Shown: positions 59,353-64,000 of the stretch, in pieces
How positions within the stretch are numbered: the stretch's first letter is position 1
How the letters are laid out: each line of letters opens with the position of its first letter
From: an uncultured Tateyamaria sp.
Lineage (GTDB): Bacteria > Pseudomonadota > Alphaproteobacteria > Rhodobacterales > Rhodobacteraceae
Reading direction: 5' to 3'
NCBI RefSeq assembly: GCF_947488715.1
Contig: NZ_CANLAG010000004.1
Span: 248,001-312,000 of the forward strand
DNA: 64,000 nt
Notes under the pieces: generated by a model
Seen by the model: the letters and a program-made list of their open reading frames with translations, nothing else
Database searches by the model: none
Told to the model about the DNA's origin: nothing
Position numbers and translations under genes: made by a program

Positions 59353-59658
59353 ATGCGTTTTACACGAGTTATCGCCGCCGCAGCGGCTGTGACGGTGTTC
59401 GGAGCCGTTTCGGCGATGGCACAGGGGCAAACGGCTGGTCCAAAGATCTACAGCTATCACAGCACCCACAATTATTGCCCGGCTGGCCTGCAGCCCGTGA
59501 CCATGGACGGCAAAATCTGCTGTGGTCGTCCAAACCAGTCGATCAGCTACCAACAGGCGCTGGCCCATGCCGTTGCCAAGAAAAAGCGGGTCAAGCGCGT
59601 CCGTCACGTACGTCAGACGCATTGCCCCGTCGGCACCAAAGGCTGCACCTTCGACTGA
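59353..59658 (+). CDS. Small exported Cys-containing protein
   Basis: A 101-residue protein with a signal peptide (AAAAAVTVFGAVSAMAQ) and a mature chain with YHSTHNYCPAGLQPVTMDGKICCGRPN, a Cys-spaced pattern I have seen in many Rhodobacteraceae hypothetical proteins, then a basic KKKRVKRVRHVR stretch and a final CPVGTKGC. Four or more Cys suggest disulfides or metal binding in the periplasm. ATG 59353 has GAGGGAAG upstream. Function unknown. Confidence 0.78.
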   Translation: MRFTRVIAAAAAVTVFGAVSAMAQGQTAGPKIYSYHSTHNYCPAGLQPVTMDGKICCGRPNQSISYQQALAHAVAKKKRVKRVRHVRQTHCPVGTKGCTFD

Positions 59659-59727: not shown

Positions 59728-59934
59728 TCAGAGCAATTTCAAATCGCCGGCCATCTGACGCCCATCGCGCCCTTCGAGCATCTCAAAGCTGACCTTTTGG
59801 TTGTCGGCAAGCCCGGTCAGACCGGACCTTTCGACGGCTGAAATGTGAACAAAAACGTCCTTGCCGCCCTCGTCAGGGGCGATAAATCCGTAGCCTTTTG
59901 TGGTGTTGAACCACTTCACGGTGCCAGTTGGCAT
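59728..59934 (-). CDS. cspA: Cold-shock-domain protein (CspA family)
   Basis: A 68-residue RNA- and DNA-binding protein with both RNP motifs: GTVKWFNTTKGYGFI and DVFVHISAV. Such proteins melt RNA structure at low temperature or act as general RNA chaperones. ATG 59934 is preceded by a perfect AGGAGG. Upstream frame extension is not used. Length is typical. Confidence 0.95.
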   Translation of the reverse strand: MPTGTVKWFNTTKGYGFIAPDEGGKDVFVHISAVERSGLTGLADNQKVSFEMLEGRDGRQMAGDLKLL

Positions 59935-60119
59935 ATCCCGTGCCTCCTTTTGCATTGCAGTCTGTCCCGCACGCGGGCCGTCACTGCGCCAGCCCGTGCT
60001 TTGATGCATCACGCGCCGCCGCCAGTTTAAAAGATTGCGCAGATGGCTTGAAAATCAAGTCAGAGGACATTCAAAGGGGCGTGCGTGCTGTATTATTCAA
60101 CGAAATCGTGAGGGATGTT

Positions 60120-60437
60120 ATGGAAATATACGGTTTGAAAACCTGCGATACGTGCCGAAAGGCGATCAAGGCCTTGCCGCAAGCGCGATTTGTCGATGTC
60201 CGATCAGAAGGTGTGCCGGACGCGGTTATGGCGGCCGCACGTGACACCTTTGGCGATGCGTTGGTCAACACCCGTTCGACCACGTGGCGCGGCCTCGATG
60301 AGGCGGCGCGGCGGGGGACACCAGAGGCGTTGTTGTCTGAACATCCGACGCTGATGAAACGCCCCTTGATCGCGGATGGCGACCGCCTGTTTCTGGGGTG
60401 GACCAAAGATGTGCAGGCGGCCCTGGGCGTGACCTAG
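60120..60437 (+). CDS. ArsC/Spx-family thioredoxin-fold protein
   Basis: A 105-residue protein of the YffB/ArsC/Spx group: YGLKTCDTCRKAIKAL contains the redox CxxC (CDTC), then FVDVRSEGV and the conserved MKRPLI cis-Pro-Leu region. No arsenate-specific Arg triad is obvious, so arsenate reduction is uncertain; some members bind thiols or RNA polymerase. ATG 60120 with GAGGGATG upstream. Its stop shares CTAG with the DoxX gene (60434-60437). Confidence 0.82.
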   Translation: MEIYGLKTCDTCRKAIKALPQARFVDVRSEGVPDAVMAAARDTFGDALVNTRSTTWRGLDEAARRGTPEALLSEHPTLMKRPLIADGDRLFLGWTKDVQAALGVT

Positions 60438-60991
60438 GCCGCAGGTGCGCGCGGTTTGAGGGCGCGGTCAAACGACAGCGGACCCGCTCCCTTGACCACC
60501 AACACGATCAGCAGGAACACCCAGAGCGACCGCTGGTCCATGATCAGGCTGTTTGAAGGCGCGTCAAACCATGCGCCCAGCACCAAACCGTCCCCCCATT
60601 TGTCGTGGCCATTCAGATCGGTCAGCGATTGCACAACGATGAATACAATCATCGCAAGCGAGGACAGCCGGGTCAAAAGCCCCACGATGATCAACAATGG
60701 CAGAATGAACTCTGCGACGGTGCCAACGGTCACGACAGCCCAATGATAGAAACTCAGCTGGGTGGTGTCATAGCCCACCGCCTCCATCGCCTTGGGGAAA
60801 ATCTGCGCATATGCGCCGAGCGAGGGTTGGAAAATGCCCAGCACCCCATCGCCCAATTTGGTCATCCCCGACACCCAGAAATACGCGGCCAGCACTGCGG
60901 CAAAGAGAAAGCGCGCCAGTGTGGGCAGGATCCAATCGTTGCGATCGAGCGGGGCAAACAGGGATGTGTGCAGGCGGGACAAGGCGGTCAT
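60434..60991 (-). CDS. DoxX-family membrane protein of the bufferin operon
   Basis: A 185-residue inner-membrane protein with four helices: LPTLARFLFAAVLAAYFWVSG, FYHWAVVTVGTVAEFILPLLIIVGLLTRL, the next pair, and the typical DoxX motif AEFILPLLIIVGLLTRLSSLAMI. It is the last gene of the bufA-bufB-bufC-doxX run; DoxX proteins are common companions of bufferin loci and are thought to interact with the membrane electron chain. It starts 3 bases past the bufC stop. Role in bufferin production is not established. Confidence 0.85.
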   Translation of the reverse strand: MTALSRLHTSLFAPLDRNDWILPTLARFLFAAVLAAYFWVSGMTKLGDGVLGIFQPSLGAYAQIFPKAMEAVGYDTTQLSFYHWAVVTVGTVAEFILPLLIIVGLLTRLSSLAMIVFIVVQSLTDLNGHDKWGDGLVLGAWFDAPSNSLIMDQRSLWVFLLIVLVVKGAGPLSFDRALKPRAPAA

Positions 60992-60994
60992 AAG

Positions 60995-61753
60995 TCAATC
61001 CTTCGGCGTGGTGATGTCGGCGATACAGCCCTGTTGCAACAACAGGGTCAGAAGCGGTGTGAGGTCAAAATCGGGGTCTATGCTGGCGGCGGCATCCTGA
61101 GCACCGGCCAAGGTGTTGCCGTCTTGCGTCGCCGCAACCCAAGCGGCCTGTGCCGTGGTGAGCGGGAAAGGCGCTGGGTCAAAAAGGCGGCGCGCCACGA
61201 GCACGGGTTGCGCGATGGCGCGCGGTTTGTCGGCACCTGCCTGCATGTTGTAGCGCCAGATATCAAAAAGCGGCCATTGCGAGGGAACCAGTTGGACAGC
61301 AGGCGCAAGGCGCAGGGTTGATGCCATCAGGCGGTCAGGCGTGATCTGCGACAGTCTTTCGGCGTCAAAGGGGGCCACGTCACCTGCATGATAAGCACGG
61401 CGCATTGCCAGTTCCAGGTGCGCCACGTCCGGCAGATAGCCGATATGGGCCAGCGGCTGAAACGCGGCCAGAAACTCCGGCATGTCCACACCATAGTGCA
61501 TCATCATCGGCGTTCGCGGCGGGTGCGCCCGCGCATAGAGACGGGCTAGTGACGCAAAGTTTTCGTCGCCCAACAGCTTTTCGAGAACCGGAAAGGCCGA
61601 CCGCAAGGCTTCGGTCAATGCCACGGTGACGTTGTTGCGGTAGACCGCAAAGCGTTTTTCAGTCGGCTGCCCATCGGCGCCGACGAGACCCTCGGGCACG
61701 GAGCGTTCAGGGTCAAGAAGTGCGGCCCGAAACTGTGATTGAACGCCGGACAT
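60995..61753 (-). CDS. bufC: Bufferin partner protein (BufC, DUF2063/HvfC family)
   Basis: A 252-residue protein. The N-terminal DUF2063 part (residues 1-90) contains RFAVYRNNVTVALTEALRSAFPVLEKLLGDENF and HPPRTPMMM, the HvfC signature, and the second half is a beta-rich partner domain (LVPSQWPLFDIWRYNMQA). In known bufferin systems BufC binds precursor and helps the MNIO enzyme BufB. ATG 61753 (MSGVQSQF) lies 4 bases after the bufB stop. Acts in the cytosol. Confidence 0.87.
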   Translation of the reverse strand: MSGVQSQFRAALLDPERSVPEGLVGADGQPTEKRFAVYRNNVTVALTEALRSAFPVLEKLLGDENFASLARLYARAHPPRTPMMMHYGVDMPEFLAAFQPLAHIGYLPDVAHLELAMRRAYHAGDVAPFDAERLSQITPDRLMASTLRLAPAVQLVPSQWPLFDIWRYNMQAGADKPRAIAQPVLVARRLFDPAPFPLTTAQAAWVAATQDGNTLAGAQDAAASIDPDFDLTPLLTLLLQQGCIADITTPKD

Positions 61754-61757
61754 GAGG

Positions 61758-62621
61758 TTACGATCCAGCGGTTGCGCTCTGCAACGCCAGTGCGGCGCGT
61801 TCGGCCTCGGCTTGCAGGATTGGCCATTCAGGTACGTCGTTGTCCCATTCCACCAGAACAGGCGCGGGCCCGGTGCGCTGTAGGGTATGGCGCAAAAGGT
61901 CCCAGACTGGTTCGGCGGTTTTGCGGCCGTGGCTGTCAATCAACAGCGGCGCACCCTGATCGTCGTGGTCATGGTCATGGCCGCCGACATGGATTTCCCC
62001 AACGGCGTCAATGGGGTAGGCATCGACGTAGCCTTGGGGCGTGTAGTCGAGATTGGTGGCGGAGATAAACACGTTGTTCACATCGAGCAGCAGCCCACAC
62101 CCGGTACGACGGACCAACTCGGCCAGGAAATCCGTCTCGGACCACGTGCTTTGTGAGAAGGCGAGGTAGCTCGATGGGTTTTCCAAGAGCAGGCGACGAC
62201 CCAGCCGTGTTTGCACCTGGTCGATATGTTCGGCCACACGCGCGAGGGTCGCGTCGGTGTAGGGCAGGGGCAGCAAGTCGTCGAGAAACTCGGCGCCGTG
62301 GGTGGACCAAGCAAGGTGTTCGGAAAAGCTTGCCGGTTCCAACCAGTCCAGCAAGTGTGCCAGCCGGGTCAGGTGGTCCTGATCAAGAGGCTGTTCACCG
62401 CCGATCGACAGGCCAACGCCGTGTACGGACACCGAAAACTGATCGCGCAGGGCGCGCAGTTGCGCGTGGGGGCGACCGCCGTCGCCCATGTAGTTTTCGG
62501 CGTGCACTTCGATCCATTTGACGGGACCCGGATCGTCACGCAAAGCATTGAAATGCTGCGCTTTGTAGCCAACGCCGGGTGCTGCTGGCAGGCGGGGAGG
62601 GGTCAGTGTCGCGTCCAGCAT
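61758..62621 (-). CDS. bufB: Multinuclear non-heme iron oxidase of the bufferin system (BufB, DUF692)
   Basis: A 287-residue DUF692/MNIO enzyme that modifies Cys of the BufA precursor. The metal ligands look intact in order: [59 protein letters not shown], and [12 protein letters not shown] 62621 gives [12 protein letters not shown]. The enzyme requires iron and oxygen in characterised members; in bufferin systems it makes heterocycles from core Cys, which then bind copper. Surrounding bufA and bufC genes fix the assignment. Confidence 0.92.
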
Positions 62622-62681
62622 GTCGAGGCTCCTGGCGGTGGGAGTGCTGCGCCACAACGGGGCGGCGCAGCGCGGTCCGCA

Positions 62682-62987
62682 TCAGGCGGGCAGGTCGCGG
62701 GTCAGTTCTTCGAGCGAACCGGTGCGTGCGGTGCCATCCGCCATTTGGGGCAGGTCGATTTCCGCGCATGTACCAGCGTCAACAAGGGTCCAAGCGTTGC
62801 CTTGGTAGTCCACAGTCGATGTGCCGGCGCAGGTGGTACCCGGTCCGGCGGCGCAGTCGTTTTCGCCTGCGAGCGAGATGCCATAGCATTTTTCCTTGGC
62901 GGCGGCTTCGGCGCTTGTGGCTGTGTGGGCGGTCATCGCGGCGGCGACGGCACCGACGATTGCTACTGTCTTCATGGTCTTCGACAT
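62682..62987 (-). CDS. bufA: Bufferin precursor (BufA1, DUF2282)
   Basis: A 101-residue ribosomal peptide precursor. The signal peptide reads up to about TATSAEA; the mature chain begins [18 protein letters not shown] and has four Cys at residues 34, 45, 53 and 74, the BufA1 pattern, with the conserved WTLVDAGTC block. Family knowledge: Cys are oxidised by BufB and the product binds copper, protecting the cell. ATG 62987 with AGGGA upstream. It heads a four-gene operon. The leader serves as a signal peptide rather than a cleaved RiPP leader only. Confidence 0.88.
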
Positions 62988-63103
62988 CTTCAACGTCCCT
63001 TTCGGATATCGGTTACAATACGGTCGTGCGCTTTACATAGGGCACCATGTTCCAAAGTTACCACCCACGCAGGGCTGTGTCACAGAGGCGTTATCAGATG
63101 TCA

Positions 63104-63138
63104 GCAAAAAGGCCGGAATTTGCGTAAATTCCGGCCTT
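63104..63138 (-). terminator. Rho-independent terminator after thrS
   Basis: On the minus strand, AAGGCCGGAATTT pairs perfectly with AAATTCCGGCCTT around an ACGC loop, followed by TTTTTGCTGA. It lies about 40 bases past the thrS stop and 117 bases before bufA, so bufA must start from its own promoter. Confidence 0.9.
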
Positions 63139-63178: not shown

Positions 63179-64000
63179 TCAGCGCAGGTCTGGTGGCGTG
63201 GCTTCCAGTCCCAATGTTTCAGTGATGTCTGCCAACGACTGCACGCTGGTTTGCTTTTCGCCCAACCGACGGACAGAGACGGTGCGTTCCTCGACCTCGC
63301 GCGCGCCAACGGCGAGGATCACGGGCACCTTGCCGACCGAGTGTTCGCGGACCTTGTAGTTGATCTTTTCGTTGCGGATATCCGCCTCGACTCGGACACC
63401 AGCGGCGCGCAGTGTCTCGACCACTTCGGCCACGTAATCGTCGGCCTCTGACGTGATTGAGGCCACAACCACCTGCCGGGGTGCGATCCAGAACGGCAGT
63501 TTGCCAGCGTGTTCCTCGATCAGAATGCCGATGAACCGCTCGAACGAGCCAAGGCAGGCGCGGTGCAGCATCACGGGGCGGTGCTTGGCGCCGTCGGCCC
63601 CGATATAGGTCGCGTCCAGACGCTCAGGCAGAACAAAGTCGACCTGGTGGGTGCCGCATTGCCAGTCACGCCCAATGGCGTCGGTCAGCACAAACTCCAG
63701 CTTGGGGCCGTAGAATGCGCCTTCGCCGGGGTTCAATTCTGGTTCGATACCCGCCGCGCGGGTCGCGGCCAAAAGTGCGGTTTCGGCCTTGTCCCAAATC
63801 TCGTCCGACCCGGACCGCTGTTCCGGCCGGTCGGAAAACTTCACGCGGAAGCTTTCGAACCCGAGGTCTTTGTACACGCTGGTCAGGTAGTCGATGTAGA
63901 CGGCGGTTTCTTCTTCGATCTGGTCCTCGCGGCAGAAGATGTGACCATCGTCCTGGGTAAAGCCGCGCACCCGCATGATGCCGTGCAGCGCGCCCGACGG
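63179..64000 (-). CDS. thrS: Threonyl-tRNA synthetase, C-terminal part
   Basis: Charges tRNA-Thr. The gene runs off the right edge; 273 C-terminal residues are present. Motif 2 is at [23 protein letters not shown], with zinc-site His in the DAHIF-like part, then [16 protein letters not shown], motif 3 [17 protein letters not shown], and the C-terminal anticodon-binding domain. It reads on the minus strand and is followed by a strong terminator. Start and editing domain lie outside the window. Confidence 0.95.

Follow-up and report, generated by a model that had tools for sequence, protein, structure and literature searches.

What does a four-gene cluster lying beside thrS in a Roseobacter-group genome encode, and is it controlled in the same way as its published counterpart in Caulobacter? 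The question is raised by a 64,000-nucleotide stretch of DNA from an uncultured Tateyamaria sp. (contig NZ_CANLAG010000004.1, positions 248,001 to 312,000 of the forward strand; this whole stretch is referred to as the window), toward the end of which the genes bufA to bufD stand on the minus strand. Very probably these genes form an intact Buf1 copper-bufferin operon whose mechanism is that of the family and whose control would fall to a factor that reads a CGTGA-type array upstream of bufA. With it, a large and already known class of copper-buffering peptides gains one more intact case from marine bacteria. Throughout, G and L numbers denote genomes and loci, respectively, G000 being the window's own genome.

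The bufABCD operon and its cysteine pattern

All four genes share one strand (minus) and have intact reading frames. The first, bufA (62682..62987), encodes a Buf1 (DUF2282) precursor of 101 amino acids, assigned by its cysteine pattern and by a profile match of 85.2 bits against DUF2282 (cut-off 22.4). It is followed after 60 bases by bufB (61758..62621), which encodes a 287-residue bufferin maturase of the MNIO family (MbnB/TglH/ChrH, formerly DUF692); the protein has no internal stop, and it scores 342.5 bits against PF05114 and 365.3 bits against the NCBI equivalog NF050167, "MNIO family bufferin maturase", which is above the cut-off of 310. Four bases further on, bufC (60995..61753) encodes the DUF2063 partner (252 residues; PF09836, 93 bits), and after another 3 bases bufD (60434..60991) encodes a long-type DoxX membrane protein of 185 residues with two inserts (33.6 bits against the DoxX profile, cut-off 23.6). 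The coordinates, strand and 60-, 4- and 3-base gaps agree with those given in an earlier sequence-only reading of the window and were confirmed on re-reading it. That reading had also called the cluster a complete bufferin-type operon with an intact MNIO, a view in line with the DUF2282, NF050167, DUF2063 and DoxX matches, all of which exceed their cut-offs. The assignment as a complete Buf1-type bufferin operon in a Roseobacter-group bacterium is therefore supported. In the window's own genome, DUF2282 is matched once, the MNIO family twice and DUF2063 twice.

A precursor, an MNIO, a DUF2063 protein and a DoxX protein make up the core of bufferin clusters (PMC12452194; this and the other papers below are cited from part of their text), and bufABCD is this already published Buf1 core, common in the lineage. 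The bufABCD genes of Caulobacter vibrioides (CCNA_03363-03366) belong to the same core families, with a four-cysteine precursor, the MNIO and DUF2063 pair and DoxX in last place (PMC12452194, PMC8224329), the third gene being listed there as hypothetical (PMC8224329). The gig operon of Cupriavidus and Legionella is likewise described as a bufferin cluster (PMC12452194), and it is known for its response to gold and copper (PMC5413113); the likeness is drawn from that description.

As judged by eye, BufA residues 1 to ~28 resemble a Sec signal peptide, with a positive start, a hydrophobic stretch and an Ala-rich, cleavage-like region. The protein contains exactly four cysteines, C34 (codon 62888-62886), C45 (62855-62853), C53 (62831-62829) and C74 (62768-62766), in the arrangement C-x10-C-x7-C-x20-C, so that the four cysteines of the earlier description stand, behind a signal peptide that is putative.

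Within the genus, 19 of 20 genomes gave a DUF2282 precursor match, and within the family 140 of 198, the window's own genome being included in both precursor counts; an MNIO match was found in 139 of the 198. Of the 140 family genomes with a precursor, 139 also have an MNIO match, G149 being the sole mismatch, and an MNIO match without a precursor was seen in none (0/198). Two sets of loci were compared: a first set of 58 precursor loci besides the window (from the 18 other positive genus genomes and from 40 of the 139 other positive family genomes), and a second, separate collection of 80 named loci, 76 of which have no exact match in the first set. BufB adjoins BufA in 57 of the 58 first-set loci and is present in 75 of the 76 new named loci, the exception, L116, being cut by a contig end. 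In all 18 genus relatives that were fetched, thrS, bufA-D, and an arsC-like and a csp gene are present. The gene order and content of the thrS-bufABCD region are far beyond chance.

The cysteine spacing, which the sequence-only reading had left open, is now settled: x10-x7-x20 is kept in 57 of 58 relatives in the first set and in 76 of 76 in the second, where L154, which starts inside bufA, shows it in the part of the gene present. The same reading had named a lack of conserved cysteines in close relatives as one observation that would count against it, and the DUF2282 search instead found them conserved. The sole exception, L106 (genome G149; also catalogued as L193), is a DUF2282 protein that retains the outer cysteines but has neither central one, and it stands in a genome with no MNIO match; NrsF is found there at another place. 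The published assignment is that bufferins are modified at the two central cysteines, with a disulfide joining the outer pair (PMC12452194, Fig. 3 legend), and the loss of both central cysteines in the absence of an MNIO fits this assignment. G149 is a natural check on which cysteines count for modification. Among the 139 family genomes with an MNIO match, G119 and G179 have an internal stop in the match and in G168 the match falls into two pieces. Two adjacent bufA-like matches each occur at L098 (G026) and L107 (G119), in 2 of the 140 positive genomes, and the latter genome is one of those with a stop inside the MNIO match.

The BufB active site was examined in an alignment of 57 MNIO sequences, comprising BufB, 55 relatives and the second MNIO of the window's own genome; 2 short pieces had been dropped. 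Twenty-one His/Asp/Glu/Asn positions are identical in all 57, and eighteen of them are H23, E38, E42, N43, H67, H102, D115, E147, N148, D180, N182, N183, H211, H215, D229, H231, E258 and D260. The recognisable metal-ligand motifs that had been ascribed to the DUF692 enzyme are thus matched by candidate ligands that are invariant across the alignment. BufB is related to the solved chain 3bww_A (2.5e-39), and other solved MNIO relatives include 8hci and 7dz9. By phmmer, no solved relative was found for BufC (E <= 0.1) or for BufA (E <= 1).

The putative control region between thrS and bufA

Upstream of bufA on the same strand lies thrS, a conserved neighbour whose 3' part (63179..64000, minus) extends past the window end. 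Between the two, inspection and folding reveal a perfect intrinsic terminator of 13 pairs with a 4-base loop (63106..63138, minus). For 63160-63090 the predicted folding energy is -26.8 kcal/mol (z -4.6), a value that no shuffle out of 200 reached; the earlier suggestion that a perfect terminator insulates the operon from thrS is upheld by this stem. A simple terminator pattern scan of the window did not list it, probably because the T run is consumed in the stem.

In Caulobacter the bufferin genes (DUF2282, DUF692 and DoxX) are copper-induced and under the extracytoplasmic function (ECF) factor SigF with NrsF (PMC8224329), and the sigma-F site is GTAACC-N16-CGAA (PMC3511200). The window differs from this type on two counts. 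First, NrsF matches were found in 29 of 198 family genomes, with none in the window's own genome among the 14 of 19 first-look candidates that were scored. Second, the conserved upstream element is a different one. Defined by a profile from other genera, it is a CGTGA-type array followed at fixed spacing by CCTAT (63037..63098, minus). The 62-base site in the window (63098-63037) scores 16.3 with the profile of 30 other-genera loci, above all 500 of 500 shuffles (maximum 9.4); its array core, 63084-63065, is degenerate, and CCTA-type bases close the block, some 50 bases short of bufA.

Both kinds of site were then counted across loci. A sigma-F-like site was taken as GTAAC-N17-CGAA with at most 1 mismatch, and the array as CGTGA-N2-CACGG-N3-CGTGA with p <= 0.05 against base shuffles; the first set gave 59 upstream regions, window included, and 74 of 76 loci in the second set were testable, L154 starting inside bufA and L163 having no upstream DNA. 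The sigma-F-like site is present in 7/7 NrsF-adjacent loci of the first set, 3/47 thrS-linked loci without NrsF (L082, L090 and L098) and 0/5 others, and in the second set in 6/6, 3/64 and 0/4, respectively. The array is found in 58/64 thrS-linked loci without NrsF in the second set, which is the fairer test, and in 38/47 in the first, a count that is partly circular because the consensus was built from that set; 0/4 and 2/5 of the other loci, respectively, also have it. In the window itself the closest fit to GTAAC-N17-CGAA has 3 mismatches (p 0.865), short of a sigma-F promoter. From this comparison we infer that bufA transcription in the window would be set by an array-reading factor and not by sigma-F/NrsF as in Caulobacter. 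Sigma-F-type and differently controlled forms of one operon within one lineage make the question of the regulator testable.

That circularity weighs against the array reading, and so does a series of further points. The shuffles used for the array preserve base composition only, and the loci in both sets are related, not independent. The array also passes in some NrsF-type loci (3/7 in the first set, 1/6 in the second). Nine first-set loci fail the simple test (the window, L050, L055, L058, L062, L076, L090, L098 and L099), among them 5 of 19 genus members, namely the window, L050, L055, L058 and L062; taken alone, the window core has 5 mismatches and p 0.155. GTAACC and CGAA stand directly before the window bufA, 6 bases apart versus 16, and may be a relic sigma-F site, and a sigma-70 scan gave no promoter at bufA. 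For the operon as a whole, G149 is a single case, and the AlphaFold model of BufA has a mean predicted local distance difference test (pLDDT) score of 38.8, too low to speak to the proximity of C34 and C74.

A search for a wider regulon in 25 genomes, with the array pattern at up to 2 mismatches, gave 89 matches versus 31 with a reversed-pattern control. The 5 exact matches are all upstream of bufA, and the 9 one-mismatch matches comprise 5 at bufA and 4 elsewhere that have one common 20-base core. L190 and L191 (one mismatch) and L192 of the window's own genome (two mismatches) lie within a gene that we take to be rpsD. No wider array regulon was found in these 25 genomes, the remaining two-mismatch matches being unsorted.

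Alternatively, the upstream block could belong to thrS, or be an RNA element, and have no part in the bufA promoter. The block does lie between the two genes and co-occurs with thrS linkage; yet the thrS terminator (63138-63106) precedes it and bufA begins some 50 bases past its end, Rfam returned no match above gathering scores, and NrsF-adjacent loci have a sigma-F-like promoter in this same region, including L078, where thrS is also present. We consider this alternative unlikely and retain the block as a candidate bufA control element. A description of the thrS linkage or of a second control type was not met in the literature, where the array letters themselves were not searched for; the main text of PMC12452194 contains none of the words "thrS", "threonyl", "Rhodobacter" and "promoter", and none of the papers covered names both DUF2282 and Roseobacter.

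A proposed pathway and the metal it would serve

In the pathway that we propose, BufA would be made with a Sec signal peptide, and the BufB-BufC pair would, by homology, act in the cytoplasm to oxidise the central cysteines C45 and C53 to thiooxazoles. The modified peptide would be exported, the C34-C74 disulfide would form, and the mature peptide would bind excess periplasmic copper. BufD would act as an accessory membrane protein of the operon and, by our own inference, as a docking or transfer partner. The cysteine chemistry, export, copper binding and copper tolerance are those expected of the window operon from its family; 5-thiooxazoles have been assigned in Caulobacter bufferin 1 (PMC13097082).

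Instead of copper, the modified peptide might deal with a different metal or stress, be it gold, silver, sulfur or oxidative stress. The gig operons, which gold induces, count among the bufferin clusters, and the presence of doxX has been taken to suggest protection from other stresses (PMC12452194); moreover, the conserved element of the window is unlike the sigma-F promoter that serves the copper-induced genes in Caulobacter. However, the functional data on Buf1 concern copper (PMC8224329, PMC13097082, PMC12452194), and the window precursor retains the Buf1 cysteine pattern, which leaves a non-copper role with a low probability.

HvfABCX and other EGKCG captophorins have in common with the copper-bufferin operon proposed here an MNIO, a DUF2063 partner, a DoxX-like protein and a signal peptide, putative in BufA, and 5-thiooxazole chemistry has been argued to be common to bufferins and EGKCG captophorins (PMC13097082). 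That the cluster is itself of the oxazolin (HvfABCX) or the methanobactin type is nonetheless highly improbable, because its matches to HvfB (BufB, 226.6 bits), HvfC (BufC, 50.7), HvfX (BufD, 27.8) and MbnB (BufB, 53.8) all lie under the respective cut-offs of 360, 142, 80 and 325, whereas BufB is above that of NF050167, and because the precursor is a DUF2282 protein with x10-x7-x20 cysteine spacing and no EGKCG repeat.

The long DoxX form, a second MNIO cluster and neighbouring genes

The window DoxX protein is long and carries two inserts; the reference here is the NrsF-type DoxX proteins found within the same family and not the protein of Caulobacter. Its long homologues (75 sequences from the named loci and the window, found with the window BufD) measure 171-207 residues, whereas four DoxX proteins of NrsF-type loci measure 142-159 residues and are without both inserts; L080, a fifth with an uncertain start, and L075 were left out of this comparison. 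Within the inserts and at their margins, at least 95% of the 75 long sequences retain Y74, D75, D125, G128, H129, F142 and D143, positions that are gapped in the four short ones. When the form was called by the better tblastn score at 138 loci (58 + 80, 4 shared; window not counted), 116 of 118 thrS-linked loci had the long form (112 without NrsF and 4 with it, L078, L130, L166 and L183) and DoxX was not detected in 2. The four that combine thrS, NrsF and a long DoxX are candidates for an intermediate between the two control types. At NrsF loci without thrS it was short in 9 of 9, and the 11 loci with neither neighbour, some of which may end before thrS, comprised 9 long, 1 short and 1 with none.

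The BufD model (mean pLDDT 83.6) has four long membrane-type helices, 21-43, 81-103, 107-128 and 145-167. This layout would place the inserts, which correspond to model loops at about 44-80 and 125-144, on one face; confidence in the second loop of the model is low (block means of 53 and 56). The positive charges of BufD are at the C terminus and in the short loop, a distribution that weakly suggests that the insert face is periplasmic, where the mature bufferin resides. Foldseek gave no PDB match to the model at E <= 0.001 (best E 2.3), and a sequence profile found no PDB relative at E <= 0.1. The long form was not met in the literature, although no search was aimed at it.

Taken together, the differences in the control region and in DoxX could amount to a variant worth describing. 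More tentatively, the thrS-linked Roseobacter operons might be a distinct sub-type in which a copper-responsive array regulator replaces sigma-F/NrsF and the DoxX loops, with their invariant Tyr/Asp/His residues, form a bufferin docking or metal-transfer site; we regard this as possible but doubtful. If true, the docking or metal-transfer reading would give DoxX a concrete role, and the invariant insert residues make that role testable.

The second MNIO of the window's own genome lies outside the window, in a cluster at L108:2601-6704 (contig C5) that encodes a 592-residue ferritin-like protein, a 188-residue Cys-rich protein, the MNIO (351 bits) and a DUF2063 protein (67.8 bits). By eye, the Cys-rich protein has no evident signal peptide. 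DUF2063 (PME-type 1) partners accompany signal-peptide precursors (PMC12452194), so that this cluster would be an exception to that pattern. Within the genus, 3 of 20 genomes, counting the window's own, have the Cys-rich protein; within the family it is matched in 4 of 198, strongly only in the own genome and G145. Neither PMC12452194 nor PMC13097082 uses the word "ferritin" in its main text.

Downstream of bufD, a 101-residue frame at 59353-59658 (plus) has a signal-peptide-like start followed by several cysteines and no Pfam match. A cold-shock protein gene (csp) lies at 59728-59940 (minus), and an arsC/Spx-like gene at 60120-60437 (plus) is convergent with bufD, the two 3' ends overlapping by 4 bases (60434-60437). 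Outside the genus, 27 of 29 thrS-linked loci have the arsC-like and csp genes near thrS-bufABCD, the arsC-like gene being the closer in 19 of these 27 and csp in 8.

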